Assembly: GCF_005281475.1 (NCBI RefSeq)
Contig: NZ_CP040106.1
Span: forward strand, 4,182,501-4,246,500
Length of the DNA stretch: 64,000 nt
Source: Echinicola rosea
GTDB taxonomy: Bacteria; Bacteroidota; Bacteroidia; Cytophagales; Cyclobacteriaceae
Reading direction: 5' to 3'
The first letter of the stretch is position 1. The number at the start of each line of letters is the position of its first letter. Below the pieces are notes generated by a model. The model had not been told where the DNA came from. It did no database searches and saw only the letters and a list, made by a program, of their open reading frames with translations. Below are positions 3,880 to 46,804 of the stretch, piece after piece. Both the position numbers and the translations under genes were made by a program.

Positions 3880-4902
3880 ATGAAAGAATATATCACGATA
3901 AAAGACTTGGCAGACCAACTTCACTTATCCGTAGGGACGGTATCCAAAGCTTTTAACCCAAAATACAAGGATATCAGCGACCGTACCCGACAGAAAATTC
4001 TTGAAGCTGCTCGCAAAATGGGGTATGTACCTAATCCTTTTGCCCAAAAACTGCTAAAGAAGAAAACCCTAAACATAGGCATAATCGTCCCGGAATTCAG
4101 TCACAGTTACTTTTCGGAAGTAATCTTCAGTGCGCAAGAAAAGCTGTTGGAAAACGATTACCAGACTTTAATCATGTCATCGCATGAAAGTTCGGAATTG
4201 GAACGAAAAAATATAGAAACATTGGTAAACCATATGGTGGATGGCCTTATCATTTCACTTTGTAATGGTAGTCTTAATCATGAATACATTAACGATGTGA
4301 TCGAATCCGGAATTCCCATTGTCCAATTTAATAGGGTATCCAAGAAAGTAAACTCTCCAAAAGTAGAGTTTAACGACTATAAATGGGCTGTATTCGGCAC
4401 TGAGCACCTGATTTCCCAAGGCTGCCAAAACCTGATCCATTTAGCTCTTCCCAGACACCTTCCCTTGGGACATCAGCGCATTTTGGGGTTTAAAAAAGCA
4501 TTGGAAAAACACCGAATTGCCCATAAGGATCACCAGGTCATTGAAGCCGGAATCACCGTACAGGACGGGGAAGAGGCCATGTCCAGGTATTTGGAAAATC
4601 ATGGATGCCCAGATGGCATATTGGCTGCAGGAGACCCCTTGGCTATCGGTGCCATGAAAATCCTGAAGCGAAAAGGGATCGCTATACCAGAAAAAGTCAA
4701 AGTTATGGGCTTTACGGAATCTGCCATGGCCTTGGTCGTCGAGCCAGAGCTGTCAAGTATATCACAGCCTACGGACCAAATTGGCCATTTGATTTCCAAG
4801 TTTTTATTGGATCAAATCGCCGGTATCGATAAGTCCAATGAACATTACCTCTTTGATGGAAAACTGAACATTAGGGAATCTACTTCCTGCACTGGTCAGT
4901 AA
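3880..4902 (+). CDS. LacI-family transcriptional regulator
   Basis: 340 residues, the usual LacI length. The N-terminal helix-turn-helix (TIKDLADQLHLSVGTVSKAF, about residues 6-25) and hinge (GYVPNPFAQ) are followed by a periplasmic-binding-like effector domain beginning at LNIGIIVPEFSHSYFSEV. It probably senses a sugar and represses the divergent symporter/oxidoreductase unit and itself through the two operators at 3786-3831. The effector is not predictable from sequence. A hairpin lies just after the stop codon. Confidence 0.9.
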   Translation: MKEYITIKDLADQLHLSVGTVSKAFNPKYKDISDRTRQKILEAARKMGYVPNPFAQKLLKKKTLNIGIIVPEFSHSYFSEVIFSAQEKLLENDYQTLIMSSHESSELERKNIETLVNHMVDGLIISLCNGSLNHEYINDVIESGIPIVQFNRVSKKVNSPKVEFNDYKWAVFGTEHLISQGCQNLIHLALPRHLPLGHQRILGFKKALEKHRIAHKDHQVIEAGITVQDGEEAMSRYLENHGCPDGILAAGDPLAIGAMKILKRKGIAIPEKVKVMGFTESAMALVVEPELSSISQPTDQIGHLISKFLLDQIAGIDKSNEHYLFDGKLNIRESTSCTGQ

Positions 4903-4910
4903 AAATGCGG

Positions 4911-4936
4911 GCCGTCAGTCGTTTTACAGCGACGGC
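4911..4936. terminator. Hairpin between convergent genes
   Basis: GCCGTC (4911-4916) pairs with GACGGC (4931-4936) directly after the LacI stop. A T-rich run follows about 12 bases later on the plus strand, inside the end of the HxlR gene. It plausibly ends LacI transcription, but the T-tract is not immediately adjacent. Confidence 0.4.
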
Positions 4937-4946
4937 ATCCCAATAG

Positions 4947-5288
4947 TTATTTTTTAATTTCCTGGTTTCTTTCCATATGGATATACCCCCATTTCCTTAT
5001 GGCCTTCACCAAAGGAAAAAGGGTATCGCCATAGGCTGTTAAGGAGTACTCGACTTTGGGAGGCACCTCTGCAAAAACCTTGCGTGCTATTATTCCATCC
5101 TCTTCGAGCTCATCCAGTTGCTTTGCGATCATCCGCTCGCTAATGGTAGGCAAAGTCCGGTTCATTTCGCTGAACCGGTTTACCCCTTTCTTGATCAGCA
5201 TGATCAACGTGGTTTTACATTTTCCTTTGATCACTTGCAAAAAAGCGTCCGATGGGCAATCGACTTCAATTTCTTTTAAATTATCCAT
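4947..5288 (-). CDS. HxlR-family winged-helix regulator
   Basis: 113 residues with the HxlR hallmark: a cysteine near the N-terminus (CPSDAFLQVIKGKCKT), then a winged helix (RFSEMNRTLPTISERMIAKQLDELEEDGII) and the wing (KVEYSLTAYGDTLFPLV). HxlR proteins are small dimeric regulators, often responding to electrophiles or quinones through that cysteine. It is divergent to a quinone-oxidoreductase-like gene, the classic arrangement for a regulator and its target. Two dyad sequences lie in the gap between them. Confidence 0.9.
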   Translation of the reverse strand: MDNLKEIEVDCPSDAFLQVIKGKCKTTLIMLIKKGVNRFSEMNRTLPTISERMIAKQLDELEEDGIIARKVFAEVPPKVEYSLTAYGDTLFPLVKAIRKWGYIHMERNQEIKK

Positions 5289-5326
5289 AATTTTATTTCC
5301 CTAATAACCAGTAAACATGTGGTCAA

Positions 5327-5369
5327 GTTCAGTAACTGAACAAAATGTAAGTCATTGATTATTTGACTT
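5327..5369. promoter_or_regulatory. Dyads in HxlR/oxidoreductase divergent promoter
   Basis: GTTCAGTAACTGAAC (5327-5341) is a perfect 15-bp palindrome around a central base. A second dyad has arms AAGTCA (5349-5354) and TGACTT (5364-5369). Both lie in the 108-bp divergent gap, so they are plausible HxlR operators. Assignment is by position only. Confidence 0.5.
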
Positions 5370-5396
5370 ATCCAATATACCTTTAAAAGAAAAACT

Positions 5397-6389
5397 ATGA
5401 AAGAAACGTTCAACGCATTTCTGGTTTCCGAAAAAGAAGAAGGTATCCATCAGGAGATTGCCCAGTTACCGTTTTCTGCATTGCCTTCCAAAGGGGTTTT
5501 GATCAAGGTCCGTTATTCATCGGTCAACTTCAAGGACGCCCTATCGGCCACCGGTAACAAAGGGGTTACTAAAAAATTCCCCCATGTGCCAGGTATCGAT
5601 GCCGTTGGGGAAGTGGTAGATCCTGACGATTCGCCATACCGAAAAGGAGACAAAGTCCTCGTTACGGGCTATGATCTAGGCATGAATACATGGGGCGGCT
5701 ATGGAGAATACACCAAAGTCCCCGAGTCATGGATCCTGTCCTTACCGAAGGGTTTATCAGAAAAAGAATCCATGTGTTACGGGACAGCAGGACTGACAGC
5801 AGGATTATCTGTTTCCAAAATCATCAATGCCGGAATTGTCCCTAATGATGGTCCAGTGATAGTCAGTGGTGCCAGTGGTGGCGTCGGTAGTATCACTACT
5901 GCAATTCTGAGTAAATTAGGATATGAAGTTCACGTAATCACTTCAAAAAACAATCCTGAATATTTCCAAGACACACTTGGAGCATCTAGCATCCTGAGTC
6001 GGGAAGCGTTTGTTGAACAACATAATAAAAAACCTATGTCCCGTCCTACCTATGCTGCTGGAATCGATTGTACAGGAGGAGAAATCCTCTCCGGAATAGT
6101 CAAGTCCGTCAAATATAGTGGTATCGTTACTTGCTGTGGCATGGTGGCATCTCCAGAAATCCATACCAGTATTTTTCCATTTATCTTAAGAGGAATCAGT
6201 TTGATCGGAATTGATTCTGTGGAAATCCCTTTAACACAAAAGGAAGATATCTGGCAAAAACTGGCCAAGGAATGGAAGCCATCACAATTGGAAAAATTGG
6301 CCAAGGAAATCTCGTTGGATCAACTTTCTGAAGAAATCAGTACAATCCTCAATGGTAAGGCCAAGGGACGGGCTATCCTAACCCATTAG
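5397..6389 (+). CDS. YhdH/AcuI-family quinone oxidoreductase (MDR superfamily)
   Basis: 330 residues of the zinc-less medium-chain dehydrogenase/reductase type. It shows the N-terminal catalytic-domain motifs YSSVNFKDALSATG and PHVPGIDAVGEV, then a Rossmann NADPH-binding site (VSGASGGVGSITTAILSKLGYEV). This matches the YhdH/AcuI group, whose characterised members reduce acryloyl-CoA or quinone-like enones. Its pairing with a divergent HxlR regulator suggests a role in electrophile or quinone stress. It is a single-gene transcript followed by a strong terminator. Confidence 0.88.
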   Translation: MKETFNAFLVSEKEEGIHQEIAQLPFSALPSKGVLIKVRYSSVNFKDALSATGNKGVTKKFPHVPGIDAVGEVVDPDDSPYRKGDKVLVTGYDLGMNTWGGYGEYTKVPESWILSLPKGLSEKESMCYGTAGLTAGLSVSKIINAGIVPNDGPVIVSGASGGVGSITTAILSKLGYEVHVITSKNNPEYFQDTLGASSILSREAFVEQHNKKPMSRPTYAAGIDCTGGEILSGIVKSVKYSGIVTCCGMVASPEIHTSIFPFILRGISLIGIDSVEIPLTQKEDIWQKLAKEWKPSQLEKLAKEISLDQLSEEISTILNGKAKGRAILTH

Positions 6390-19326: not shown

Positions 19327-20445
19327 TCATATTCCCAGGTCAGGAATACGCTCGACAGCCTCACGTTTACGTTCATCGACTACCTTTGCATAAATTTGAG
19401 TGGTCTTGACGTTTCTGTGGTTAAGTAATTTTGATGCCGTATAGATATCCGTACCTAAGGACAATTGCAGCGTAGCAAAGGTATGTCTGAAACAATGAAA
19501 GGTAATTTTCTTTGTGATGCCTGCCCTCATTATCCAGTCCGATAGTTTACTATTGGTCCACATCGAATATTTCAGTCCATCAAAGATCCTTGACTCAGGG
19601 TCAATGATCAACGGCTTGATTATTTCGATGGCCTGTCTTGATATATTCAATGTTTGGGATCTATTGGTTTTAGCATGTCTGATGTTAATATAATAACCAG
19701 TAACCTGAGAAAAGTGGAACTGACTCCAGGTCAAATCAATTAGATCGCTCCACCTAAGTCCCGTAAGTGCTGAAAAAATGGAAGCCTCTCGAAGTTTGGG
19801 AACCTCACAAGGTGTCTTGTTGAGTTCCTCAAGGGTCAAATATTCCCTGACCGATTCTTCCTGTTTCAGTCCATCTACCTTTAATCGAAAGTTTTCGGTT
19901 AGGTAATCCCTTTTGTACGCCTCTTCCAAAACCAACATAAATTTCCCATAATAGGATGCCTTACTATTTGTGGACAATTTCCTGGTCCTGCTTTTTAGGC
20001 TGGTACAGTTGTTCAGATAATACTTATAATCCTCACAGAATGCCCGGTCAATGTCCCTGTTACTACAGGTACCGTTGGTATAAAGCTTGAAATATTTAAA
20101 GGCCGCTTGCCAGTTTGCATGGGTGCTGTCACTGGTCCATTTATTTCGCACCATCTTTTTAAAAAATTCCAAGAGGTCCATTTCTTCCAGGCCACTGTTG
20201 AGGAATTCAAAACGCTGTGCATGCACATCCAATTGACGGGATGCCTGAATGGCTTCTGCCTGCATCATTGTTTCCTTGTTATGTTGCCTTTCCAAAACAT
20301 TCTTTGGCCTTTCGATCAAATACATTTTCAGGGATTCCCTCCTTGTCTTTTTAAGCGTTTTTGGGTTTTTTATAGGCGGGTAAAAGTCCAGGTATAGACT
20401 TACCTTGCCCTTACTGATCTTCCTTTTTCTGAGATGTACTTTCAT
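19327..20445 (-). CDS. Tyrosine recombinase/integrase (first module)
   Basis: 372 residues of the Bacteroidetes phage-integrase-like family: arm-binding N-terminus (KGKVSLYLDFYPP), SAM-like core, and a catalytic domain with LTGLRWSDL (Arg), TFHCFRHTFA (His-x-x-Arg), LNHRNVKTTQIYAK (His and Tyr nucleophile). It overlaps the upstream zinc-finger/HTH gene by 35 bases. It lies just outside the left att site of the larger element in the same orientation and layout as that element's own integrase, suggesting a remnant of an earlier element at the same locus. Confidence 0.9.
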   Translation of the reverse strand: MKVHLRKRKISKGKVSLYLDFYPPIKNPKTLKKTRRESLKMYLIERPKNVLERQHNKETMMQAEAIQASRQLDVHAQRFEFLNSGLEEMDLLEFFKKMVRNKWTSDSTHANWQAAFKYFKLYTNGTCSNRDIDRAFCEDYKYYLNNCTSLKSRTRKLSTNSKASYYGKFMLVLEEAYKRDYLTENFRLKVDGLKQEESVREYLTLEELNKTPCEVPKLREASIFSALTGLRWSDLIDLTWSQFHFSQVTGYYINIRHAKTNRSQTLNISRQAIEIIKPLIIDPESRIFDGLKYSMWTNSKLSDWIMRAGITKKITFHCFRHTFATLQLSLGTDIYTASKLLNHRNVKTTQIYAKVVDERKREAVERIPDLGI

Positions 20446-20809
20446 TGCAATTATTATTGAAAATTAAGTCCAGATTTTTCCTGTAAATAATGGTTCTTCT
20501 ACCCAGCTTTTTGGCTGGGACCACACCTGACTTTATCAATCTATAAAGCGACATTCTACTGATTCCAAGAAGTTTACAAGTATCATTTATACTAAGAAAA
20601 CTCTTCTCTTCAAGCTTCTTTATTGGCAGCTGAGATTGTTTTATAGCTTCAATATTGGATTGTTGGATCTTTTCATCCTTTTTCCGTTTTTTATAGGCCT
20701 TTTTTGCACATATATCTCCACAATACTTGGTAACTGTAGTCTTGGCAGTAAACTCTCTTCCACACTGGTAGCATATTCGTTGAATTCTAATTTTCGAGCT
20801 CATATCCAA
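20411..20809 (-). CDS. Zinc-finger plus HTH accessory protein of integrase module
   Basis: 132 residues. The N-terminus has a four-cysteine zinc-ribbon (CYQCGREF and YCGDICAKKAY), then a lysine-rich linker and a MerR/excisionase-type helix-turn-helix (LSINDTCKLLGISRMSLYRLIK). It overlaps the start of the integrase gene, so translation is probably coupled. It likely acts as a recombination directionality factor or as an integrase regulator. Confidence 0.75.
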   Translation of the reverse strand: MDMSSKIRIQRICYQCGREFTAKTTVTKYCGDICAKKAYKKRKKDEKIQQSNIEAIKQSQLPIKKLEEKSFLSINDTCKLLGISRMSLYRLIKSGVVPAKKLGRRTIIYRKNLDLIFNNNCNESTSQKKEDQ

Positions 20810-21062: not shown

Positions 21063-21084
21063 TCTGCATTTATTTACCGATACA
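21063..21084. repeat. Left att site of the mobilizable element
   Basis: Sequence matching the mnmE 3' end at 46783-46804 with two mismatches. On the minus strand it reads TGTATCGGTAAATAAAT, which would encode the same Cys-Ile-Gly-Lys-stop as mnmE, with a silent change in the glycine codon. This is as expected for an att core carried by an element that restores the target gene. Confidence 0.8.
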
Positions 21085-21148: not shown

Positions 21149-21279
21149 TGCCGCTTAATTTATTGTGAATAATCTCGTCTATAATTTCTCCTGTAATTTC
21201 GCCCTTTTAAAAGTGACCTATTTTAGTAAGCCGAATTGTTGTTTACTACTACTTGGCTTTTTTTTATGCACTGCTTCTT

Positions 21280-22197
21280 TTATTTCTTGTCCTTGCTTCG
21301 ATTTTCAAATAATTTGTCCGTATAAGAGTAGTGTATATTTTGTCCTGAAATCCCTTCATTCAGTTCCCTTATCTTCTGTTTTATATGTTCTTCTGTTTTT
21401 GTTTCGAAATCAAAGTCACTAAGAATTAGTAATTTGTTGTATTGTTCTTTAAGCCACTTGAATTTTTCAAAAACTTCTGGCTTTTCAAAACTTGAATCAA
21501 GTCCGTTAATGATAACTTTACGAACTTTACTTATTGGTTCGGTTAATAACTCAGGTGTCATTTCTGTCCAACTTTCGATTACTTGGTAGTAAATTAATTG
21601 ATGAAAACCTACACAACCATCATCAAATCTATCTAAATACTGGTGGTATGGGTACCTGTTTCTCTTTCGTTCAAGCGGGTAGTTCAACTCTTTCAATAAT
21701 TTGTCTGACAGTACGATCCTTGGATATTTAGCACTTCTTGTTTCGAGCATAAATGCGTCAATTAATCCTTGTCCGAATACTGTTCCATTGTCAATATGAA
21801 TTATATTTCCAAGTGTCAGACCACCGCGAAATAAAATACCTTTTTCTAAAAGTACAGTTCCAATATAGGCTAGATTAACAATTAAAGTTGAAGCCATTTC
21901 ATTTATGTTTTGGTCAACTTGAATTGAAACTACGATACTGTCAGAAAATGATGTGGTATTTGTTTTCCCACGCAGGTCAAAATTGCTTAAATCCTTATAC
22001 TGCGCACTCTCTTCAATTTCTACAAATTTCAAGTCCCACTTCTCTGACTTTTCCCAATCTTTTAAATACTCAAGAACAGAATAAATTAACTCGATTTTCG
22101 AAGAGTCTATTTCAGATTGTTTTACTATTTCCTTAAATCCAAGAATATCGATAAATGCAATTAATCTGAGTTCATAGTTTAGTGGTGTATTTTTCAA
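21280..22197 (-). CDS. Class III nucleotide-cyclase-like protein
   Basis: 305 residues. The sequence has the outline of a class III cyclase catalytic domain: RLIAFIDILGF with Asp17, TTSFSDSIVVS with Asp86 (the two metal-ligand positions), LFRGGLTLGNI (residues 123-132, similar to the conserved R-x-G-I-x-x-G strand) and VFGQGLIDAFMLETRSAKYPRIVLS. There is no signal peptide or membrane segment. Related stand-alone proteins occur in bacterial defence islands, and cyclase-fold proteins make cyclic nucleotide signals in Pycsar defence. Activity here is unproven. It is the last gene of the minus-strand cargo, 70 bp after the 414-residue gene, and ends about 196 bp from the left att site. Confidence 0.6.
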   Translation of the reverse strand: MKNTPLNYELRLIAFIDILGFKEIVKQSEIDSSKIELIYSVLEYLKDWEKSEKWDLKFVEIEESAQYKDLSNFDLRGKTNTTSFSDSIVVSIQVDQNINEMASTLIVNLAYIGTVLLEKGILFRGGLTLGNIIHIDNGTVFGQGLIDAFMLETRSAKYPRIVLSDKLLKELNYPLERKRNRYPYHQYLDRFDDGCVGFHQLIYYQVIESWTEMTPELLTEPISKVRKVIINGLDSSFEKPEVFEKFKWLKEQYNKLLILSDFDFETKTEEHIKQKIRELNEGISGQNIHYSYTDKLFENRSKDKK

Positions 22198-22267
22198 TTT
22201 GTTTCAGTTTTTCAGGGTGTTGTTTTAGCCTCATTATTGCTGATATGCACTGGGCTTTTCTCATATT

Positions 22268-23512
22268 CTAATACAGAGCTAAGTTCTTATTTTTATATGT
22301 GATTACTTCTTCAAAATCAACTACTTTTTTAAACAAGATTAATTCAAGTTTTAACATAAGATCTTTGATTAGTTTCAATAGTTCTGGCCGAAGTTTAATA
22401 TTATGAATGGTTAGGTGAATTTCACTTTCTTTATTGTGTACCACTGTATTTCGTAGCTTATAAATTAGGGTTAGTAGTGCATTATAGGAAGCATTTATGT
22501 TGTTTGTATCAATGGTTTTAGATTCATTTGGATATAGCATGTCCTCAACCGTAGATTTCAAGGTAGCATTACTAGATAATTTACCCTTAAACCAATTACC
22601 TAAATCAGTTTCATTGGTTTTAAAAACAGTTTTGAAGTTTGATTTATCAAAGTCATCATATTTAGCCAAGCTGGTCATTTCTCTTAGAAAGAGATTTTGA
22701 TTTGAACTATTGACTTGAATTTTCACTAAAAGAGTTCTGGTAATCAAGTACTCTATTACCTGATATAATTTCAAATACTTGACAAGTATATCATTTGCGT
22801 GATGATATTCATCTATTACATCATAAACTTCAAAAAATTGAGTAAAATCATTTGTTGATGAGTTGACTGATGATATTAAAGATAAGTCCATTCTATAATC
22901 ATGAATTACATCTGAAGGAAAAAGTGTTTTATATCCTTTCAATAAATAAAGAAAATAGCTTTTTGAATAAAGTTTGACAAAATCTTTATTAGTTGAATTG
23001 AATACTGCAATAACAGTGTTTTTAGCTCCAGAGAGAACTTTACGAAAGAAAACGGAAAATTCTTCTTGAGTAATAGTACTGCTGCCATAATACAGAATGA
23101 CCTCTCGTAATTTTCTCTCTATGGAATCCTTTTCAATTTGTGGTATTTTATATATGGAGTCGTTTTCAATATACTTGATTGGTATAATTGCACCGATTGG
23201 AGAAGATAGTACAAAGTTCCGAATCCGAAATTTTGTTTCTTTTTTTTTAGACAAGTACGATATCTCAACACTATTTAAAGATATATAAGTGGAAATGTTA
23301 TCATTCAAATTGATTGAAACGTCTAGCGTTAAACCTTCAACACTGTTAATAATAGAAGTGACGACATTGTTTGCAGGTGCTTTAGTTCTAACATTATTAA
23401 TTAATACGCTTAAAATGTCTGTTTCATAAGACAGTTCCAAGTCCGCATCAAAAACTTCCAATTTTACAGCTAGCCTTTTTAAAAAGTCTTTTGCACATTG
23501 TTCAATACTCAT
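22268..23512 (-). CDS. Unrecognised protein paired with DGQR/DUF262-like gene
   Basis: 414 residues, no signal peptide, rich in Asn, Ser, Lys and Ile. I do not recognise a family. The middle and C-terminal parts are mostly helical, with YHHANDILVKYLKLYQVIEYLITRTLLV and a C-terminal segment LRNTVVHNKESEIHL that resembles a HEPN-like R-x-x-x-x-H element, a feature of RNA-cleaving toxins, but this is only a suggestion. Its ATG overlaps the stop region of the upstream 418-residue gene by one base, so the two are translationally coupled and probably work together. Confidence 0.75.
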   Translation of the reverse strand: MSIEQCAKDFLKRLAVKLEVFDADLELSYETDILSVLINNVRTKAPANNVVTSIINSVEGLTLDVSINLNDNISTYISLNSVEISYLSKKKETKFRIRNFVLSSPIGAIIPIKYIENDSIYKIPQIEKDSIERKLREVILYYGSSTITQEEFSVFFRKVLSGAKNTVIAVFNSTNKDFVKLYSKSYFLYLLKGYKTLFPSDVIHDYRMDLSLISSVNSSTNDFTQFFEVYDVIDEYHHANDILVKYLKLYQVIEYLITRTLLVKIQVNSSNQNLFLREMTSLAKYDDFDKSNFKTVFKTNETDLGNWFKGKLSSNATLKSTVEDMLYPNESKTIDTNNINASYNALLTLIYKLRNTVVHNKESEIHLTIHNIKLRPELLKLIKDLMLKLELILFKKVVDFEEVITYKNKNLALY

Positions 23513-24768
23513 TATTTTTTCATTTCGTGATTAAACAATGACATCCAATTCGGGCTTCCCTTTTTAAGTTTATGAATCGTATAATTCATAATGACTGTAC
23601 GTATAAGATTTCCAATATTTACAGATCTCCCACTGAGGCTGTCGTATTCAGCATTAAACTTTGCAAGATTTAATTCAGTGGGTAAGGTTGATTTTAACTC
23701 CTCAAAGGATTCAAGTATTTTATTTTCTATATCACCATCTTCATTAGATGAATTTAAATTTAGATGAACCCCAACACCCGCAAATATCCCATTCAACGTG
23801 GTATCTTTACCAAACCATGAGACTCCCTCTTTACCATACGTGCGGTTTATCTCAGTGTCTATAGCATACAACTTTTCAAGTAATTTTTTAATAAATTCAC
23901 TATTGAAAATTATTTCAGTATACTGAAGTGAAATTCCTTCATCATTCTCATTAATTAGATCATAACGATATATTATGTCACTGCTTATTCTTTGGGGCTT
24001 AGCAAGAACTAATGACATTAGAGAAGTAATTATCGAAGAAAACAAATACTCACCCGGTTTTCTTTCCCCTCTTTTAATTGAGTTAAAATCTTGTTCTTTC
24101 TCTCGAACTACTCTTATGTCAGTGAGCTTACCATTTAAGGATTTCCATAAATTCAAAAATAAAATCTCAAACTGATGTTGTGTTGATACAGCCTTATGAC
24201 CAGCATTTAGAACTAACATCTTCTTTACTAATTCAGGTTCAGAAAGATTAGACCAGATAGTAAAGTATAAAGTATAGGACGAATATTTTTCTTCAAAATC
24301 AATAACAGTTTTCCCTTCTGGAAAGTTAGATTTAAAGAATTTGGAATCAACAATTCCGTTTTCAAAGAACTGAGGATAGAATGATTTGATTCCTAAAATA
24401 GTATCCTTTAAGTTTTCGTATCTCTCTGTTTTAATTTTGGTATATATTTTCCAAAATGCCCAAAGTCTATAAGTTCGTTGGAGACCATCAAGAATATCTA
24501 ATTTGTTGTCAGTCAGATTTACATGACTAGACTTCTCTATTTTTGAAAGAGGCTCATGGTAAGCAAGAGTGATATTTGGTAATGGTTCTCCAAGTTCGAT
24601 TGTAAAAAGCAAGCCATCTAAATATCTGTTTTTTACAATTTTTCTTTGGACCTCAAAATTGAAATTGTCATCGACAAGAGATTCTACATATTCTAGCAGG
24701 TTAAGCTCAGCAAGTAGCCAATACTTTCCCTTGCCAAAATCTTTCTCTCTAAGTATTTTAAATTTCAT
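23512..24768 (-). CDS. DGQR/DUF262-like protein (ParB/Srx-related fold)
   Basis: 418 residues. The motif ILDGLQRTYRLWAFW (about residues 92-106) matches the DGQQR-type signature of DUF262 and DGQHR-domain proteins, which adopt a ParB/sulfiredoxin-like fold and in GmrSD/BrxU enzymes drive nucleotide-dependent DNA cleavage. The later NAGHKAVSTQHQFEILF also fits that superfamily. No HNH nuclease domain is seen at the C-terminus, so nuclease action may need a partner. It is coupled to the 414-residue gene and begins the three-gene unit ending in the cyclase-like protein. The attC-like hairpin lies between it and the ABC operon. Confidence 0.65.
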   Translation of the reverse strand: MKFKILREKDFGKGKYWLLAELNLLEYVESLVDDNFNFEVQRKIVKNRYLDGLLFTIELGEPLPNITLAYHEPLSKIEKSSHVNLTDNKLDILDGLQRTYRLWAFWKIYTKIKTERYENLKDTILGIKSFYPQFFENGIVDSKFFKSNFPEGKTVIDFEEKYSSYTLYFTIWSNLSEPELVKKMLVLNAGHKAVSTQHQFEILFLNLWKSLNGKLTDIRVVREKEQDFNSIKRGERKPGEYLFSSIITSLMSLVLAKPQRISSDIIYRYDLINENDEGISLQYTEIIFNSEFIKKLLEKLYAIDTEINRTYGKEGVSWFGKDTTLNGIFAGVGVHLNLNSSNEDGDIENKILESFEELKSTLPTELNLAKFNAEYDSLSGRSVNIGNLIRTVIMNYTIHKLKKGSPNWMSLFNHEMKK

Positions 24769-24796
24769 TTATTCTTATTTCCTTCTTTTCTAATGC

Positions 24797-24861
24797 TTTA
24801 CAACGTTCCGTGTATGGTGTCGTAGCATCCCGAAGGGTGCCATGGAACAGATTGTTAGGGC
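24797..24861 (-). repeat. attC-like recombination site
   Basis: On the minus strand the 65-nt segment begins GCCCTAAC, then AATCTGTTCCATGG, a loop, then CCATACACGGAAC and GTTGTAAAGC. The arms GTTCC-ATGG and CCAT-ACAC-GGAAC form a bulged imperfect hairpin as in integron attC sites. GCCCTAAC (minus strand at 24854-24861) is exactly complementary to GTTAGGGC just upstream of the ABC operon (28404-28411, minus strand). That is the layout of an integrated gene cassette. No integron integrase is present here. Confidence 0.5.
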
Positions 24862-24867
24862 TTGTTC

Positions 24868-26715
24868 TTATTCAAGATATGATTTTGGAATCAATGCATT
24901 ACCGTCATGGAATACTTCAACGATATTTATGTTTTTTAAACCAGACACCGTGTCAATAGGAATATGCTCTAAAACAATCATCTGAAAATTTCCATTATTA
25001 CTCATTCTTGTACTTATAAATCTATCCAGTAACTCAAAAGCTTTTTTGATTTTGTAGTCATCGCTATCAGGGTCATCCGTCTTTCTCTTACCGTTCGTAC
25101 CGTAATATGGCCTACTGGGCTGGTCTATGATTAGGAATGGAGCAACAAATGGTGACTGGTTTTGAAATATAACTTCATGCATTGCAAGTGAGAAAAACAA
25201 GTGAAGAAACATATGATTAGAACTGCTACCAACATTTTCTATGTAGGAGGTCTTTGGCTTCCGTAACAGCAATGTTTTGTTTTTATAGTCAAATACAGGT
25301 TGGTAGGTTGAGTAATTTGCTAGTGATTTATCGGACTCCAGTATGTACTCACTTATAATTTCTTCAGCCAACTTAATTGTTAACTCCCTTTTTTCTTCAG
25401 TATTTACAATTATCAACCGCTCTATTTCCTCTTCTAAAGCTTTAATTTCTTCATCATATGATGTTTTGACAGATGAAGAGTCTGTTGAAAATATTTCAAG
25501 TTTTGATTTCATTTGACCTAAGAAGAAATACTTTTCTTTTTCACTATTAAAGCTTCTATTGTCTTTAGGAAGTAGATCTAATTTAGATTTTATTATTTCG
25601 AGTTCTGATTCTAAATCCTTAACGTTATCGTTAACCTGTCTGTCAATAGGAGTATTTGTTCGATATGCCTGGCGAATAGTTGTTAAGTCCTTAGTGTAAG
25701 AAGTTACAAGCTGTTCAAAAATGGAGGTTTTTAAAATTTCAGAATCTTTTTCTCGTAGAAACTCAATCGGCTTAAGACTGTCACTGAGATTCTTAATAGA
25801 ACTTTTGTACCTATTGTACTCAGAGGAAAATCTTTTTAGGTTTCGGATTTTTCTTTGCAGTGAATAAAAAGATGATTCCAATTTTTCTCTTTCTGAACCT
25901 GGTGTTGATTCGGCTTCAAATCCCTCAATTGCTTTATTGATCTCAACTATTACCTCATCAGTTTTAGCATTATCCCTTATAACGTTATATTCTTTGGCTT
26001 TTCGTAAAACTTCGACACGCTCTTGATTAAAGTCTGTAGCTTTTGATGTTGTCGCTTTGTTCTTTCTAATAAACTTGGCTAATTGTTTTTCTAGGTCGGC
26101 TTTTTTCTCGCTTTTAAGAATATTTTCAACGGTTTCTATACCTAGGGCAAGATCGAAGATGCGAGGAAGTGCCTCTTTATATCTAAGCTCATTTTGTTTG
26201 TCAAAAAACACACCTTCATCATTTTCAATAATATTACCAGATATCGTATTAAACATTAAAAAGTACCGAAGTGAAACCTTAGTGCCTGCCTTTATATAAT
26301 TACTGCCAAAACTAATTGGGAATTTCGCGTCTCTATCTATGTTGAATTCAGTTTCTAAAATAGCTTTTATGGCGCTTGATGTGTTATTTGAATCTAATTT
26401 AGGTGGTATCTCACCGAAAGAAGAAAAATAATAATTGTCAGAAACTTTGCCTTCAATAAGTGCTTTGCGTGCTATAGTATAAGTTTTATCATTCACAGAA
26501 ATGTTTATGCCGTACCACAAAACATTTTCGTTTATCATACTTTCTGAAATCCGAGACTTGCTTGAAAAGAAACAGTAATCTATAATTTCAAGAATCGCAC
26601 TTTTTCCAGTATGGCTCCCACCTGTTATTATATTGACTTTGTTTGGTTCGAAATTAACCTCTCTGATTTTACCATTCTTGAGCCACAAGACGATTTTATT
26701 TATATGAAAATTCAT
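24868..26715 (-). CDS. DUF3732-type SMC-like ATPase of ABC three-component system
   Basis: 615 residues. Walker A is IITGGSHTGKSAI (residues about 29-41) in the DUF3732 arrangement. Long coiled-coil arms follow (roughly 190-450), and near the C-terminus FLIIDQPSRPYYG is the Walker B-like motif where family members have DQPSQ. This is the ABC ATPase of the ABC-3C conflict systems described by the Aravind group, thought to sense nucleic acid or protein assemblies of invaders and activate an effector. It overlaps the middle-component gene by 4 bases. Intact, with no frameshift. Confidence 0.8.
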   Translation of the reverse strand: MNFHINKIVLWLKNGKIREVNFEPNKVNIITGGSHTGKSAILEIIDYCFFSSKSRISESMINENVLWYGINISVNDKTYTIARKALIEGKVSDNYYFSSFGEIPPKLDSNNTSSAIKAILETEFNIDRDAKFPISFGSNYIKAGTKVSLRYFLMFNTISGNIIENDEGVFFDKQNELRYKEALPRIFDLALGIETVENILKSEKKADLEKQLAKFIRKNKATTSKATDFNQERVEVLRKAKEYNVIRDNAKTDEVIVEINKAIEGFEAESTPGSEREKLESSFYSLQRKIRNLKRFSSEYNRYKSSIKNLSDSLKPIEFLREKDSEILKTSIFEQLVTSYTKDLTTIRQAYRTNTPIDRQVNDNVKDLESELEIIKSKLDLLPKDNRSFNSEKEKYFFLGQMKSKLEIFSTDSSSVKTSYDEEIKALEEEIERLIIVNTEEKRELTIKLAEEIISEYILESDKSLANYSTYQPVFDYKNKTLLLRKPKTSYIENVGSSSNHMFLHLFFSLAMHEVIFQNQSPFVAPFLIIDQPSRPYYGTNGKRKTDDPDSDDYKIKKAFELLDRFISTRMSNNGNFQMIVLEHIPIDTVSGLKNINIVEVFHDGNALIPKSYLE

Positions 26716-27152
26716 AGTTGAACTCTTAAGTTTAAAAATAGGTTTTTATCGCTTCCTGAAAGTAATGCTGAAACATTATTGGAAGCTTGGAATATCTTTT
26801 TCGCTCTAGTCCCCATTTTTGTATCATATTCTAATGACTTTGTCTTTAATAGAACGCCTTCATCATGCCGCGCATAACCCATTTCAGTTAAGTATTGGAT
26901 TGATGAAAATGAAAGAGTTAATGCATCATAATATCTAGCATTGAAGTTAGAAAAAAAGCTCGTTTTCTCAGATATTAATTTTTCAATACTTTGTACTTTA
27001 GTAGTCGTTCTAGCTAAGTAATACAAACTCTCAGTATGAGTGATTAAAGGCATTATTAAAGTTGCCTTAGCTATGGATAAATCATCGCTATTACTAAGTA
27101 CTGCACCTATGGCTGTGACGCCCACGCCAATATTGTTATAGTCTACTTTCAT
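26712..27152 (-). CDS. ABC three-component system middle component
   Basis: 146 residues, all-helical look, no catalytic motif. Small proteins of this length encoded exactly between a nuclease-like effector and a DUF3732 ATPase are the middle components of ABC-3C systems. The sequence (KATLIMPLITHTESLYYLA, TEMGYARHDEGVLL) fits that class, which probably bridges effector and ATPase. It overlaps both neighbours by 4 bases (ATGA type), so the three are translated as a unit. Confidence 0.7.
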   Translation of the reverse strand: MKVDYNNIGVGVTAIGAVLSNSDDLSIAKATLIMPLITHTESLYYLARTTTKVQSIEKLISEKTSFFSNFNARYYDALTLSFSSIQYLTEMGYARHDEGVLLKTKSLEYDTKMGTRAKKIFQASNNVSALLSGSDKNLFLNLRVQL

Positions 27153-28366
27153 TTTTTATGCTTTTCCCAGTCATTTCTCCAACCAATTACTGGTTCGTCT
27201 GAGAGTGAATAAAACTTCCCGTTACATAAATCAACTTCAAGATCTTGCCCCGCCAGTTTAAGTTTTTCTTTTAAGACAGTTCGAAGAACTTCAATACCCT
27301 TCTTATTGTACTCTTCTTCTGCAATGTTTCCGACATGCTGCATGCGAAATTCAGTATCCCATAAATTGATAGCATTGCTTTTAAAACGCTCCAATTCTAA
27401 ATCTGTCACATTGCCTTCGAGCTTCCAATCATTAAGATTGGTCAAGAGTTTAAGTTTATATGTAGTTAACTTGATTATGTGTTCAAAGTCACCACTTTGT
27501 ACAAAACCAACTTCCAATAATTGTTTTATGAAAACCTGTTTTTCCAAATTGTCAGGAAGTACTCCTTTGTATTCTTGAATATCCAAAAATCCATTTCGAT
27601 ACATGTCGAATAGTCGTCTATATCTCTTATACAATTCATTAAACGTAATTTCAATTTTAACACCCTCTTTAACTTTTAGGAAGTTGTCTGATCTGAGGCT
27701 TGAATCTATAGTTTTAAATGCTTTGTCAATTTTTTCTTGAGGAATCATTTTCCCCTTTATAGCATCTTTACATTTGATAATGATATCATCATCATCTAAA
27801 TGGAAAAAAGTGTTCAGTAAAAATTGTTTTAAAACGCGTTGGTCCAGATCTAATACATCTTTGATGTAACCTTTTAAACCTGGGTTGTTAGTGCTTTTTT
27901 CCAAAGATTGGAAATAGGTACGGACATTATTTTCATTCTTTGTTCCACTTTGAAGTTGATTAATTATGGTAACAACATTATTTGATTTATTAGAAGATTT
28001 ATTACTTGCTAAAACAAAGCTTGTCTTTTCAATTAAGTTAAGCTGAGCTTGTGTTGTACCTCTGCCATCTTTTGTATCACTTATAACTTTCGACCAGTTA
28101 GAGAATGTTTTCCACATGTCTAAATCTGAAGTAGTCAGATTTGTCGAAGACCCTTTAGTATTTTTCTTAATGGTGTGCTTTAACTGATATAGGATTTGAT
28201 GATTATTACCCAATTCAGTGTGCACATCATCTTTAACTTCCAATCCAACAGATTCATTCGGCTGTAGCAATAAAACCCTCCACAGGAAGAAATAATATTG
28301 GTAATCAAAACCAATTGATTTTGATTCTGCAGCAGTTTTTTCGGTATGTGATTTATTGTTACTCAT
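27149..28366 (-). CDS. Restriction-endonuclease-like effector of ABC three-component system
   Basis: 405 residues. The N-terminus resembles DUF4297/Cap4-type PD-(D/E)xK nucleases: GFDYQYYFFLWRVLLL, then GLEVKDDVHTEL with Glu43 and Asp46/Asp47, and ILYQLKHT with the Q-x-K pair Gln61 and Lys63. The remaining 330 residues are helical and probably contact the middle component. It is first in the operon, with ATGA overlaps down to the ATPase. In established systems such nucleases cut DNA when the ATPase is triggered. The target is unknown. Confidence 0.75.
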   Translation of the reverse strand: MSNNKSHTEKTAAESKSIGFDYQYYFFLWRVLLLQPNESVGLEVKDDVHTELGNNHQILYQLKHTIKKNTKGSSTNLTTSDLDMWKTFSNWSKVISDTKDGRGTTQAQLNLIEKTSFVLASNKSSNKSNNVVTIINQLQSGTKNENNVRTYFQSLEKSTNNPGLKGYIKDVLDLDQRVLKQFLLNTFFHLDDDDIIIKCKDAIKGKMIPQEKIDKAFKTIDSSLRSDNFLKVKEGVKIEITFNELYKRYRRLFDMYRNGFLDIQEYKGVLPDNLEKQVFIKQLLEVGFVQSGDFEHIIKLTTYKLKLLTNLNDWKLEGNVTDLELERFKSNAINLWDTEFRMQHVGNIAEEEYNKKGIEVLRTVLKEKLKLAGQDLEVDLCNGKFYSLSDEPVIGWRNDWEKHKK

Positions 28367-29377: not shown

Positions 29378-30433
29378 TCACTCATCTTCTTTATTCAGTT
29401 TGTTCTGGGCGATTTCCATGGCCCTGTGCAGCTTTTGCTCCAGGACTTTCATCGGTGGCAGGTGCACCAGGTATTCGGCCACTTTGATATTTCCTTTGTC
29501 CAGTTGCAGCAGCTCGATATGTTCCTGATTTTTGGAGGCACAGAGGATCAGGCCTATCGGTGGGTTTTCCCCTTCTACCGTTTCATGTTTTTCCAGCCAG
29601 CGAAGGTACAGCTCCATTTGTCCTTTGTACTCTGCCTTGAAGTGGCCTAGTTTTAGATCAATGGCCACAAGGCTTTTTAGCCTGCGATGGTAAAAGAGCA
29701 GGTCGATATAATAATCCACTTGATCTATTCCGATTCTCTTTTGCCGAGCCAAAAACGCAAAATCAGAGCCCAGTTCTCCGATGAATTTTTGGAGTTCATT
29801 CAGAATTGAATCTTCCAGGTCTTTTTCGGAGTAAGTGTCACTCAATCCCAAAAAATCCAGAAAATACGGATCTCTGAATATCAAATCCGGATTGACGGAA
29901 TCCTGATTTTTTAATTCCCCTAAGGTGGTTTTGATGGTTTCTTCCGGTTTCTTGCTGATTGCCGTGCGTTCATACAGCATGGAGTCGATCTTCTCCTGAA
30001 GGCTGCGCACGCTCCATTTTTCCAGTTTGCAGATTTCTACATAAAACATGCGCTTTACCTCGCTGTCCATAGGAATGATCAGCCGGATGTGTGACCAGGT
30101 CAATTGTGAACACAGTGTGTGCACAATTTCTGCGTCTGGAAAAGCCTCGGCAAAACGCAGGCAATAATGAATCTGACGCTTGCTCCATCCCTTTCCGTAC
30201 TCTTGTTCTAGCTGTACGGACAATGAGTTGATGATTTCTTTCCCGTATTCCGCCCGTTGATGATGCAGGACTTCTTCATGAAGTCGCTTGCCTACCTTCC
30301 AGTAAAGCAGACTTATTGCTGCATTTACGGTGTGAGCTACTTGCCTACGGCTTTGATCGATCAGCTGCTTGATCTCCCCAAATAGCGGATCGGTACTGCC
30401 TTGGCTATTCGATACTTCGTTACTTTTTCTCAT
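29378..30433 (-). CDS. YhcG/DUF1016-family PD-(D/E)xK nuclease
   Basis: 351 residues. The N-terminal DUF1016 domain (INAAISLLYWKVGKRL-like NAAISLLYWKVGKRLHEE, YGKGWSKRQIHYCLRFAEAFP) is followed by a PD-(D/E)xK nuclease domain: DYYIDLLFYHRRLKSLVAIDLKLG with the acidic residues and lysine, then GQMELYLRWLEKHE and GLILCASKN. The family (PF06250) is related to resolvase-type nucleases and is often embedded in type I restriction loci. The protein looks full length while the adjacent hsd genes are fragments, so it may be an orphan or act alone. Confidence 0.88.
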   Translation of the reverse strand: MRKSNEVSNSQGSTDPLFGEIKQLIDQSRRQVAHTVNAAISLLYWKVGKRLHEEVLHHQRAEYGKEIINSLSVQLEQEYGKGWSKRQIHYCLRFAEAFPDAEIVHTLCSQLTWSHIRLIIPMDSEVKRMFYVEICKLEKWSVRSLQEKIDSMLYERTAISKKPEETIKTTLGELKNQDSVNPDLIFRDPYFLDFLGLSDTYSEKDLEDSILNELQKFIGELGSDFAFLARQKRIGIDQVDYYIDLLFYHRRLKSLVAIDLKLGHFKAEYKGQMELYLRWLEKHETVEGENPPIGLILCASKNQEHIELLQLDKGNIKVAEYLVHLPPMKVLEQKLHRAMEIAQNKLNKEDE

Positions 30434-36017: not shown

Positions 36018-37040
36018 CTAAAACTGCTCAAAAATAGGCTGTAGGCTTTTCTCGTGATGTGCTTTACACAGTTTGTGAATGCATTCGGCTCGATGGAAAA
36101 GTTTGGTGGCAATCTCTTCCTTTACGACAAACGTAATCTGATAACGGGCTTTGCAATAGGCATCTTCGAGGGTTTTGAGTAGTTTTACTTCATCAGGGCT
36201 GTCTTGGGGAAATACTGTGGCAAGCTCAGGAATGTATTTCCAACATTGTCGGATCAGCACCCTGATTTCATGGGTCTTCTTTACATAGTTCTCCCAACAG
36301 TGTACCAATGACCTAAGCCAAAGTTCCAGCGCTTGATGGATAAAATAGACCGATAGGGTCCAATCTTTCTTTTTTCGTTCGATCTGTACATGTTCCCAAA
36401 AGGCATTCCCTATCTCCCATCCCGCCAAAATTCGCTCTCGGGCTTCACCAAGGGCTCTAGCTTTGACTTCCTTTTCCATTATTGGCAGTTCCATACTTCC
36501 GTCTTTTTGATAGATCAACCTATCCTCGTTTAGGTAATAATGGAAAAATAGGTTTCCATCCATCAATTCCTGCTTAAGATATGAACGGTTGATGGGATGA
36601 ATACACAACTCATCTTTTCCCAATGCCAAGAAGCCCAACAGTCCTTTGTAGGTCTCCATGGTCTGGGAATTAACACTGGGCAACAGGACATAAACCTCTT
36701 TCCGATTAATTTCTTCGCTCTCATCTAGTGCCGGCAAATCGAATAGGTATATACGATCAGGGCCCAAAATGATTTTTATAGCAATCACCAAGTGCACAAA
36801 GTATTCATCCAAATCTTGGGAATATACTGTATTTGCGTGTCCGGCCCCTTTTTCATCCGTGATTACCCTTTCTTCTAAAAATGTACACAAGCTTTCATAA
36901 AAATCCACCATATCCTTATCCTCCTGTTTATCAGCTGATCTGTACGGTGAAGTGGTCCAGTGCTTGAAAAGCTCCCAGAGTTTTGCTTTACTGGCTTCCA
37001 AGTTGGTAGGGCTTGAAAATAATTCTTTTGTAGCTGTCAT
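36018..37040 (-). CDS. HEPN-domain protein with nucleotidyltransferase-like N-terminus
   Basis: 340 residues. The C-terminal third is a HEPN domain: WTLSVYFIHQALELWLRSLVH, THEIRVLIRQCWKYIPELATVF, LLKTLEDAYCKARYQ. The N-terminal part contains a region (VHLVIAIKIILGPDRIYLFDL) placed like a degenerate minimal nucleotidyltransferase, but catalytic GS and DxD motifs are not clear. HEPN/MNT proteins form toxin-antitoxin modules; this fused or degenerate form is also common as single proteins in Bacteroidetes. A 409-bp region upstream (37041-37449) contains two copies of a TCA(G/A)TTGCAATCAC word near 37204-37246 but no gene. Confidence 0.65.
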   Translation of the reverse strand: MTATKELFSSPTNLEASKAKLWELFKHWTTSPYRSADKQEDKDMVDFYESLCTFLEERVITDEKGAGHANTVYSQDLDEYFVHLVIAIKIILGPDRIYLFDLPALDESEEINRKEVYVLLPSVNSQTMETYKGLLGFLALGKDELCIHPINRSYLKQELMDGNLFFHYYLNEDRLIYQKDGSMELPIMEKEVKARALGEARERILAGWEIGNAFWEHVQIERKKKDWTLSVYFIHQALELWLRSLVHCWENYVKKTHEIRVLIRQCWKYIPELATVFPQDSPDEVKLLKTLEDAYCKARYQITFVVKEEIATKLFHRAECIHKLCKAHHEKSLQPIFEQF

Positions 37041-38451: not shown

Positions 38452-39516
38452 TTAAATTTTATGACCAAAAACCGCTCTAATATTTTTTAAATTCTCAGAC
38501 ATTTCAATTTCTTCCACTCCTTTACACAAAATACTTTTCATTTTAGCATAATCAATCTCCGAAGCCACCGGATCTGTCCAACCAAATATTCTCTTAAGAT
38601 TTTTACAGAAGCCGTCCTCATCCGGATCCATTACGGGAAAAGCATAATTCAGAACAGGTTTGGTAATCGCATCATAGGTGAGTTTTGTGGAAGGAAACCT
38701 TACTCCATCATATTTCATAGTTTCCTTTCCACCATATTTCTTGATTTTCTTTATATAACTCATTAACATCTGAGGGACGATATACTCCGGATTATAAGGG
38801 TGGTTATGGGGAGGCGCAGTTTTAAAAAGACAGGATCTTGTAAAAGGAAGAAAAGCTAGAAATCTTAAAGCGGAAAAATAATCGCCATCATGATTTAATC
38901 TCCAAATTACGAACTCTGGAAAATCAATTGTAATTACTTTGAACGAATCACGACTTCTGAACTTAGAAATATAATATTCTGAAATAGTATCCCCATTGAA
39001 AGTCTCTTCTTCGCAAAGCTCAATAGATTCTCCCAAATACAAAGCAGGAGTTCCAGAAATGCTAAACCTATAGTTTCTGCACTTGCGCCTTTCAAAATAC
39101 TTGATATGGAATAAATCTTCCTTTGTGAAGGGGAGACGCTTACCATCTTTGCAATTAGAACGTCTAATGCGGAAAAAGTCTTTTTGATCAAGAGGTAAAA
39201 ACGAATCAAAAGACAAATTCCTATTATTTGATGATTTCATTAGCTCATTGAAATTACCAATAGCCGTTTCATCATCGTCATCTAATTTGCTCTGGATTAC
39301 TTTGTAGGTCAAATCATGAGTTTTTTTAAAGGTGGTTTTCACTTCGTTTTTATCCGACTTGAACCAATCAAATTCGGTTTCGCAAAAACTTTGAATCTCC
39401 TCAATAGTTCTTTGGTACACAGATAAAAAATCATCGTTTTCCGACTTAAACGGAAATGGGAATTTCTTTCTGAATTTTTCTAAATCATTGATAAAGCATT
39501 GTGTTTTAGTATGCAT
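38452..39516 (-). CDS. RES-domain protein (NAD+-degrading toxin-like)
   Basis: 354 residues. The core has RES-type motifs: FFRIRRS, then HIKYFERRKCRNYRFSISGTPALYLGESIELCEEE, matching the R...RFNP.G.P.LYLA...E pattern of the family. RES toxins hydrolyse NAD+ by phosphorolysis or related reactions. The N-terminal 110 residues are an extra helical domain. No Xre/ParS antitoxin gene is adjacent, so it may be an effector of a defence unit or be controlled by the small membrane protein downstream. Confidence 0.6.
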   Translation of the reverse strand: MHTKTQCFINDLEKFRKKFPFPFKSENDDFLSVYQRTIEEIQSFCETEFDWFKSDKNEVKTTFKKTHDLTYKVIQSKLDDDDETAIGNFNELMKSSNNRNLSFDSFLPLDQKDFFRIRRSNCKDGKRLPFTKEDLFHIKYFERRKCRNYRFSISGTPALYLGESIELCEEETFNGDTISEYYISKFRSRDSFKVITIDFPEFVIWRLNHDGDYFSALRFLAFLPFTRSCLFKTAPPHNHPYNPEYIVPQMLMSYIKKIKKYGGKETMKYDGVRFPSTKLTYDAITKPVLNYAFPVMDPDEDGFCKNLKRIFGWTDPVASEIDYAKMKSILCKGVEEIEMSENLKNIRAVFGHKI

Positions 39517-40303: not shown

Positions 40304-41479
40304 TTAAATACTCCTACCCTTTTTCCGCTTCTTCTTTTTCTTTCGAGGAATTGGATCTACCTCCCCAGAATTAGGAACAGGCCTAAGCAACAGGTCAAGA
40401 ATATCAATGGCACCGCCAACAACTTGATGACCAAGGTCAATTTCTTTTCGATTTTTTGTTGTAATTCCCCCTGATGTTGAAGTTCCTTTTTTACCAATTC
40501 CAGTTTGGAATTCATTTTGACCCCACATTGATAATTGGTCTCGATCTGATCGTTCTGTCTGTCCAGCTTTCTGCTGATGTGCAGGAGACTGTCCTGGATC
40601 TTGGGAATGTACCCCATGAACTCGAGTTGTTTTTTGACCATTTCCTGATAGTCCTCCTGGGTATTTTGATGTTGTTCTTGCGTTTGCCTGGCCAATTGCT
40701 TGGCGATCTCTAGTTTGCTCATAGTGTAAAGTATTTGCGATGTTCTTCCATTTGAATTGGTTGCCCAAAGATTGCCCCTTGGCCTTAAAGCCTTCATAGC
40801 AGTAGGCCACGCCTGACACCCTGCCGGTACTGGCCTGGTTGAACAGTAGATTAGCCCCTGCTGCCTCAACTTGTTGGATAAAGTCTGTCATGGTATTGGT
40901 CTGCTTTAAGGCCTCTCCCACTATTTGCTGGAGCACCATTTTCTTGGATGGTTTTCCGGTTCTCATCACCATTTCGATTTCATCCTTATTGGGCGCCTTG
41001 ACCTTAGCTTCCTTGCTGCTCTTAACTTGTTGCAGACCATATTTCTTTTCCAGTTTTCTCACCAAGCTTTCGCTCTTTCGGTAGTTGTTGCTATCGGAGA
41101 CCACTGTTCCATCAAACCGGTTTCTCAATGCCAGCAAGTGGCAATGGGGGTGTTCGGCATCATGATGCCTGAAAATGAAATAGGCATTGTCATCGAAGCC
41201 CATGCCTTTCAGGTATGCATTGGCTATGGACAGCATTTTTTTATTTGATATTTTTTCCTCCTTGCCAAAGCTTAGGCTGACGTGGTAGGTATTCCGCTTA
41301 AGCCGTGGATTCATGCTTTTCATCAACTCTACTTCTTTCTGTACCATTTCCCTGTCCAAGCTGCTAAAGTTTGTTTCCAGAACTTCTGCACGCTTTACTT
41401 CATCACTGGTCACCATCTTTTTGAGATTATAATCCAATGCTCCCATAAAGTTTTTTCCGATGGACTGTTTAGCGATCAT
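40304..41479 (-). CDS. Relaxase/mobilization nuclease (MobA/BmgA-like)
   Basis: About 391 residues from the Met at 41479 (MIAKQSIGKNFMGALDYNLKK), which overlaps the MobC stop by 11 bases. The MOBP-type relaxase signature is present: FRHHDAEHPHCHLLALRNRFDG with the three-histidine metal site, and NTYHVSLSFG. The tail after about residue 265 is low complexity and ends in a lysine run. It nicks oriT and pilots the strand into a recipient through another element's pore. A second gene is encoded in a different frame within its 3' third. Confidence 0.88.
   Translation of the reverse strand: MIAKQSIGKNFMGALDYNLKKMVTSDEVKRAEVLETNFSSLDREMVQKEVELMKSMNPRLKRNTYHVSLSFGKEEKISNKKMLSIANAYLKGMGFDDNAYFIFRHHDAEHPHCHLLALRNRFDGTVVSDSNNYRKSESLVRKLEKKYGLQQVKSSKEAKVKAPNKDEIEMVMRTGKPSKKMVLQQIVGEALKQTNTMTDFIQQVEAAGANLLFNQASTGRVSGVAYCYEGFKAKGQSLGNQFKWKNIANTLHYEQTRDRQAIGQANARTTSKYPGGLSGNGQKTTRVHGVHSQDPGQSPAHQQKAGQTERSDRDQLSMWGQNEFQTGIGKKGTSTSGGITTKNRKEIDLGHQVVGGAIDILDLLLRPVPNSGEVDPIPRKKKKKRKKGRSI
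40357..40722 (-). CDS. Coiled-coil membrane protein nested in relaxase gene
   Basis: 121 residues from ATG at 40722 (MSKLEIAKQLARQTQEQHQN), wholly inside the relaxase gene in another frame of the same strand. It has a long amphipathic coiled coil (QDSLLHISRKLDRQNDQIE, KLELVKKELQHQGELQQKIEKK) and ends with one membrane helix (LLAVPLIFLTCCLGLFLIL). This composition is far from random and the relaxase tail in the same DNA is low complexity, so the nested frame is probably the conserved one. It may be a mobilization accessory protein. Confidence 0.6.
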   Translation of the reverse strand: MSKLEIAKQLARQTQEQHQNTQEDYQEMVKKQLEFMGYIPKIQDSLLHISRKLDRQNDQIETNYQCGVKMNSKLELVKKELQHQGELQQKIEKKLTLVIKLLAVPLIFLTCCLGLFLILGR

Positions 41480-41813
41480 GGAGCAGCAGTTTGATGATTT
41501 GATCCAATTTTGCGGAAAGGGCATCAATCGCCCTCGCCCTGTCTGCGGACACTTCAAATTTTGAATTGAGGTGTTTTGCAATCTGGTTTATATTATTGCC
41601 GATCCTTTTGAGCTCCATATAGGTCTGCCTGTCCAGTTTGGCAACCTTTGCCTTGGGCAACCTGTTTTTGAACACGCAGGACCTGACCACGTCAGCGGCC
41701 GGCATCGCTGCCACTTCGCATAGACTTCCCAGCAGTCTGAGCTCTTCTTCGGTCATGCGGAAAGTAAACTTTATATTCCTCTTCTGATCTTCGGGTTTCT
41801 TTGGTCTTCCCAT
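41469..41813 (-). CDS. MobC-like mobilization accessory protein
   Basis: 114 residues from MGRPKKPEDQ at 41813; the open frame extends 9 codons upstream, but the MGRPKK start is the family norm. Ribbon-helix-helix-like N-terminus (KFTFRMTEEELRLLGSLC) and the MobC motif LKRIGNNINQIAKHLNS are visible. It helps the relaxase bind oriT. It overlaps the relaxase start and lies just after a large hairpin that could be oriT. Confidence 0.85.
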   Translation of the reverse strand: MGRPKKPEDQKRNIKFTFRMTEEELRLLGSLCEVAAMPAADVVRSCVFKNRLPKAKVAKLDRQTYMELKRIGNNINQIAKHLNSKFEVSADRARAIDALSAKLDQIIKLLLHDR

Positions 41814-46622: not shown

Positions 46623-46650
46623 AATACAGGTATGGTTTAAAAGTTGAACA

Positions 46651-46702
46651 ATTGTACAACCATTTTTCATAAAGATGTACAAATGATGTAACCAATGTAC
46701 CA
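46651..46702. promoter_or_regulatory. Candidate integrase arm sites, right end
   Basis: TTGTACAAC (46652-46660), ATGTACAA (46675-46682) and CAATGTAC (46693-46700) lie between the integrase start and the right att site. Similar TTGTAC words flank the left att site at 21129-21148. Confidence 0.45.
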
Positions 46703-46782
46703 AAAAAGAATATTATGAACAAGTAAAAATCGTTTAAATAACTGATTTACAGGGTAAAGAAAAACATTTAGAACTAAAGAAA

Positions 46783-46804
46783 TCTGGATTTATTTGCCGA
46801 TACA
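46783..46804. repeat. Right att site overlapping mnmE stop codon
   Basis: Contains the mnmE stop and last codons (minus strand TGTATCGGCAAATAAAT). Matches 21063-21084 at 20 of 22 bases. Marks the chromosome/element junction. Confidence 0.8.

Follow-up and report, generated by a model that had tools for sequence, protein, structure and literature searches.

A three-gene stretch in an Echinicola rosea mobile element most likely combines the Dazbog system with an unlinked class III cyclase-fold gene

Introduction

Dazbog is a two-gene anti-phage system whose components, DzbA and DzbB, were reportedly described by Millman et al. in 2022. In canonical nucleotide cyclases, an Asn and an Arg serve as transition-state residues and a Lys selects the base. 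Here, we compare these systems with three consecutive genes of Echinicola rosea, located on the minus strand at 21280-24768 of a 64,000-nucleotide stretch of contig NZ_CP040106.1 (hereafter, the window), where a mobile element ends. The original prediction for these genes had proposed a new three-gene defence unit in which sensor, signal synthase and effector would parallel Pycsar or CBASS. Our analysis indicates that the unit most likely consists of Dazbog and an unlinked gene, and guards against mistaking the three genes for a new defence system of the signalling type.

The mechanism of Dazbog is termed unclear in a passage of a 2025 review (PMC12409349). According to passages of this review and of a second article, methylases can activate the system by a route that is unclear as well (PMC12409349, PMC12926258). 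Part of a further article, which cites Millman et al. for Dazbog, states that the DUF262 gene is required in the system and describes another system, PD-T4-2, as a combination of DUF262 and HEPN domains (PMC10952713).

Results

Genes 1 and 2 belong to the Dazbog family

Three minus-strand open reading frames were found exactly at the positions predicted, with an overlap of one base between the first two (TAATG), followed by a spacing of 70 bp:

23512-24768, minus strand: gene 1, assigned to DzbA (418 amino acids, ATG start)
22268-23512, minus strand: gene 2, assigned to DzbB, the second Dazbog gene (414 amino acids, ATG start)
22198-22267, minus strand: gap of 70 bp between DzbB and gene 3; DNA homology breaks on both sides
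21280-22197, minus strand: gene 3, orphan class III cyclase-fold protein similar to PHROG 23933 (305 amino acids, TTG start)

Gene 1 matched the PADLOC model of DzbA (E-value 1.4e-36) and gene 2 that of DzbB (E 2e-11), the latter in a weak alignment covering profile positions 14-338 of 341. The description of the first protein as DUF262-like, with a DGxQR motif and without an HNH domain, held true: DGLQR occupies residues 94-98 of DzbA, the longer string ILDGLQR (residues 92-98) is invariant across a 30-row alignment, and Pfam detected no HNH/DUF1524 domain in the protein. The Pfam match to GmrSD_N was weak (E 0.0027) and below the cut-off of the family.

A scan of genome contigs yielded 125 relatives, of which 80 loci were kept, all with a DzbA open reading frame. 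In 75 of these loci, a co-directional DzbB lies downstream, and in 71 of them the distance is at most 110 bp. Four of the five loci without DzbB (L040, L054, L060 and L080) end about 1.7 kb or less from DzbA, and L068 does not. Because the PADLOC models of both components match, and because order and adjacency are kept in related loci, we assign genes 1 and 2 (22268-24768) with high confidence to Dazbog, as judged by family membership. The pair has both components of the known system in the same order and adjacency, as well as a DUF262-like first protein without DUF1524. It differs in representing a divergent Bacteroidota branch, to which the PADLOC DzbB model aligns weakly, and in being followed by a third gene, which is not conserved.

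Dazbog and gene 3 behave as separate modules

An iterated profile detected no member of the gene 3 family across the 80 Dazbog loci; in 68 of them, at least 1.3 kb past DzbB was covered. Nor did it detect one in 13 DzbA-like loci from viral contigs (seven of them with a DzbB match) or in the short DzbA-like loci of six other genomes of the same taxonomic family. The closest Dazbog among the loci compared (L004 from Algoriphagus chordae, 86%) has no gene 3 in the 2.1 kb covered downstream. Likewise, neither DzbA nor DzbB was detected in the 20 kb surrounding the closest gene 3 among the loci compared (L134, 85%) or in the scanned stretches of the gene 3 loci L084-L143. A wider look at genome G034 revealed an exception beyond the stretch scanned there, namely a 31% gene 3 relative about 11 kb from a Dazbog pair and in opposite orientation. 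Within the 390 genomes of the same taxonomic family, a gene 3 relative occurs in 15 and a DzbA relative in seven (the window's genome being counted in both), and the two lists overlap only in the window's genome and G034.

The DNA itself shows the same separation. In blastn searches, positions 22269-24796 of the window, comprising the Dazbog pair alone, matched only L004 (80% DNA identity), and positions 21259-22211, comprising gene 3 alone, matched only L134 (81% DNA identity). Both matches end within the 70-bp gap or at its border, which is the pattern expected of two separately acquired modules. It is very likely that Dazbog and gene 3 are such separate modules. The proposal of a new three-gene unit is thus not supported, as its first two genes are already known as Dazbog, its third gene rarely accompanies them and DNA homology breaks after gene 2.

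All three genes look constrained, judging from ratios of nonsynonymous to synonymous substitution rates (dN/dS) that each derive from one relative and from synonymous rates near saturation (dS 1.2-1.7 for all three pairs): 0.057 for gene 3 compared to L134, and 0.063 and 0.070 for DzbB and DzbA compared to L004. The TTG start of gene 3 is also present in L134. A mini open reading frame of 30 codons (22172-22264, minus strand) begins a few bases past the DzbB stop and overlaps the start of gene 3 in a different frame.

DzbB carries invariant HEPN-type residues

The R-N-x-x-x-H segment that had been noted as possibly HEPN-like is present in DzbB as RNTVVH, and its R354 and H359 are, together with E254, invariant in 62 DzbB rows with 11-82% identity to the window's DzbB. 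A C-terminal R-x4-H was found in 77 of 79 DzbB open reading frame matches (the window's gene counted twice); of the other two, L018 is cut by a contig end and L024 represents the N-terminal part of a gene that is split. DzbB therefore contains both the R-x4-6-H motif and the upstream acidic residue of HEPN ribonucleases (RNases). E254 is part of a helix spanning residues 242-268, and R354 sits close to where helix 339-358 ends, in agreement with the placement on HEPN helices 2 and 3 in the relevant part of a published description (PMC3710099). As in the HEPN superfamily, including AbiV and MtlR/YggD, the R-x4-H ends a helix placed like helix 3, and the acidic residue is in a helix placed like helix 2. 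The invariance of E254, R354 and H359 fits a catalytic site. Structural similarity of DzbB to HEPN is weak, and Foldseek returned nothing convincing for the whole DzbB model. On balance, we slightly favour the view that DzbB is an RNase effector with a C-terminal HEPN-like domain.

PD-T4-2 also pairs a DUF262 with a HEPN domain, a likeness at the level of the domain description. No passage joins Dazbog and HEPN in the parts considered of PMC10952713, which mentions both, and a literature search for the names DzbA and DzbB yielded no defence-related title. The HEPN assignment is a modest new point that may already be in print elsewhere; it provides Dazbog with a testable effector hypothesis.

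Gene 3 has a cyclase fold and a non-canonical active site

In structural comparisons, gene 3 was closest to class III cyclases, followed by GGDEF domains, and the cyclase homology domain fold was found in the protein. It contains the motifs FIDILGF (with D17), SFSD (with D86) and RGGLTLG, confirming the earlier view of a class III cyclase-like third protein. The two metal-site Asp, the loss of which had been named as a point that would speak against this view, are both retained, in 49 of 49 family rows. In an hhalign comparison with four Pfam-matched cyclases chosen by a motif filter, D17 and D86 aligned with the metal Asp (E 8.7e-5, with a probability of only 60). Gene 3 thus has the fold of class III cyclases and Pycsar PycC and the two metal Asp at the same alignment positions; part of PMC11224242 indicates that PycC enzymes too carry two such Asp.

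In contrast to these enzymes, most gene 3 members lack the canonical Asn/Arg pair and the base-selecting Lys. The position of the transition-state Asn is I146 in gene 3 (in the family, I in 28 and N in three of 49), that of the transition-state Arg is M150 (E 11, K 9, M 7, L 7, Q 6 and R 1 of 49) and that of the base-selecting Lys is T82 (T in 27 and K in three of 49). A second difference is that no effector gene lies beside gene 3 in the window: its neighbours are DzbB and, past a probable attachment (att) site, a helix-turn-helix (HTH) protein and an integrase, and neither PycTM nor PycTIR. No cyclic-nucleotide effector was found among the selected neighbours of family members that were scanned. 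PADLOC matches of the 49 members at E-values up to 0.1 included no Pycsar protein, although it was not checked which Pycsar models the library contains. The suggested Pycsar- or CBASS-like logic is therefore not borne out, as an adjacent cyclic-nucleotide effector and the canonical Asn/Arg pair are both missing.

Gene 3 is best described as a stand-alone protein of the class III cyclase fold, with two metal Asp and a non-canonical active site. As a modest new point, its relatives form an unannotated cyclase-fold family in viral contigs and chromosomes, which we flag for its combination of a metal site and an unusual active site. At least 120 gene 3 relatives show 71-90% identity, the majority of them from metagenomes. 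It may be speculated, with considerable reservation, that gene 3 is a member of a class III branch (PHROG 23933) that is widespread, unannotated and carried by mobile elements, and that it catalyses a new type of nucleotide reaction, serving stand-alone defence or conflict between elements. The new chemistry is proposed because the two-metal site is kept while the classical transition-state and base-selecting residues are replaced. Other matches of gene 3 were judged to be due to chance, namely MarR regulators, the sole PDB matches in a sequence search with the gene 3 profile (E 0.025 and above), Diphtheria_R in Pfam (E 0.15) and ThsB in PADLOC (E 0.0063 over 31 residues).

An all-versus-all comparison of neighbours in 23 loci revealed no constant partner of the gene 3 family; the only matches were those between the related loci L119 and L126 and one pair of DNA methylases shared by L127 and L132. 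Among the selected neighbours scanned, DNA methylases occur near gene 3 relatives in at least four loci (L127, L132, L138 and L140). In L138 (3935-11460), a distant relative forms part of a type I restriction operon with the order HsdM, relative, PIN, HsdR. A ParA-like ATPase is encoded directly upstream of distant relatives in L129 and L130 (about 3900-5700), and a Beta protein near a relative in L143. In L142 (7788-10319), another distant relative follows mnmE on its 3' side at a distance of about 300 bp, the type of site used by the element in the window.

Proposed mechanism and alternative explanations

The finding probably represents two independent cargo modules that meet where an integrative mobilizable element ends. 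Within the Dazbog module, DzbA would be a DUF262/ParB-like nucleotide-binding protein that holds the nucleotide in its DGLQR pocket and may sense invading DNA or its methylation or modification. It could keep DzbB inactive until triggered and then release it, upon which DzbB, as a HEPN-type RNase, would cut RNA and stop the infected cell. We infer all of this biochemistry and the order of triggering. Such a sensor and RNase logic would, by analogy, resemble the one suggested by the domain make-up of PD-T4-2.

The RNase role of DzbB competes with a reading as a helical scaffold or DNA-binding partner, leaving it to DzbA to cause the damage or to block DNA directly. The weak structural similarity to HEPN would suit this reading, as would the DUF262 relatives GmrSD, BrxU and SspE, which act on DNA according to part of PMC10952713. 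It appears unlikely to us, since the residues invariant in 62 DzbB rows fit a catalytic site and DzbA lacks a nuclease domain by Pfam.

The adjacency of gene 3 could alternatively reflect a three-gene Dazbog variant, in which the product of gene 3 would synthesise or break down a nucleotide signal and thereby modulate DzbB as a HEPN RNase, in a relay similar to CRISPR type III or CBASS. HEPN RNases regulated by nucleotide signals do exist in CRISPR type III systems, the genes are co-directional and 70 bp apart, and the metal Asp of gene 3 are conserved. The lack of gene 3 in the 80 Dazbog loci, including L004, the L134 gene 3 without DzbA or DzbB in its surroundings and the homology break between the modules nevertheless render this variant highly improbable. 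Somewhat less remote, but still doubtful, is a stand-alone cyclase of the Pycsar type or another cyclic-nucleotide cyclase with its effector elsewhere in the element. Fold and metal Asp are compatible with such an enzyme, whereas I146, M150 and T82 at the positions of the catalytic Asn, Arg and Lys argue against it, as does the lack of Pycsar proteins and cyclic-nucleotide effectors in the searches above. We therefore retain the reading of two independent modules.

The mobile element and its surroundings

The following features surround the three genes:

19327-20809, minus strand: second tyrosine integrase and HTH/excisionase-like gene, shortly beyond the probable att site (21063)
21063-21084, plus strand: probable far attachment site, at which the 3' end of mnmE (46783-46804) is repeated directly with 20 of 22 matching bases
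24868-28366, minus strand: Lamassu/ABC-3C trio, directly upstream of Dazbog (Pfam/PADLOC)
29378-30433, minus strand: YhcG PDDEXK nuclease
36018-37040, minus strand: protein with a C-terminal HEPN domain (PF05168, E 1.8e-13)
38452-39516, minus strand: weak RES-domain (toxin-like) protein
40304-41581: relaxase
45480-46703: integrase, adjoining mnmE (Pfam)
46790-48172: mnmE, insertion site of the element (Pfam)

The integrase, the relaxase and mnmE identify the region as an integrative mobilizable element, as do a MobC protein, a primase and a VapE-like protein. About 200 bp separate gene 3 from the repeat of the mnmE end, which probably closes the element there; 20 of 22 matches were not reached in any of 200 shuffled versions of the window (single-base shuffling). 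The position at the far cargo end was predicted correctly, as were the residue motifs and the cyclase-like fold of the third protein, while the new three-gene unit and its signalling logic were not supported. The second integrase outside the att site suggests a tandem or remnant element.

The Lamassu/ABC-3C trio consists of an LmuB-like DUF3732 ATPase, an MC3 middle component and an LmuA-like protein with a weak CTD7 match. In such a defence-rich island, a chance adjacency of Dazbog and gene 3 is easy to understand. Rfam models at gathering scores gave no match between 19 and 30 kb, and strings similar to AGTGCATAA, which occur near the ends of gene 3, were not enriched in the window.

An imperfect palindrome (24797-24866) is situated between the Lamassu ATPase gene and DzbA. 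An integron cassette was considered, as the palindrome resembles attC by eye, and was rejected: the sequence occurs only once in the genome, its folding was no better than that of shuffled sequences on the minus strand (z -0.32) and mildly better on the plus strand (z -1.58), and GTTRGGC was not enriched (six observed versus 11 expected). A 15-base piece of the palindrome matched 36 viral stretches.
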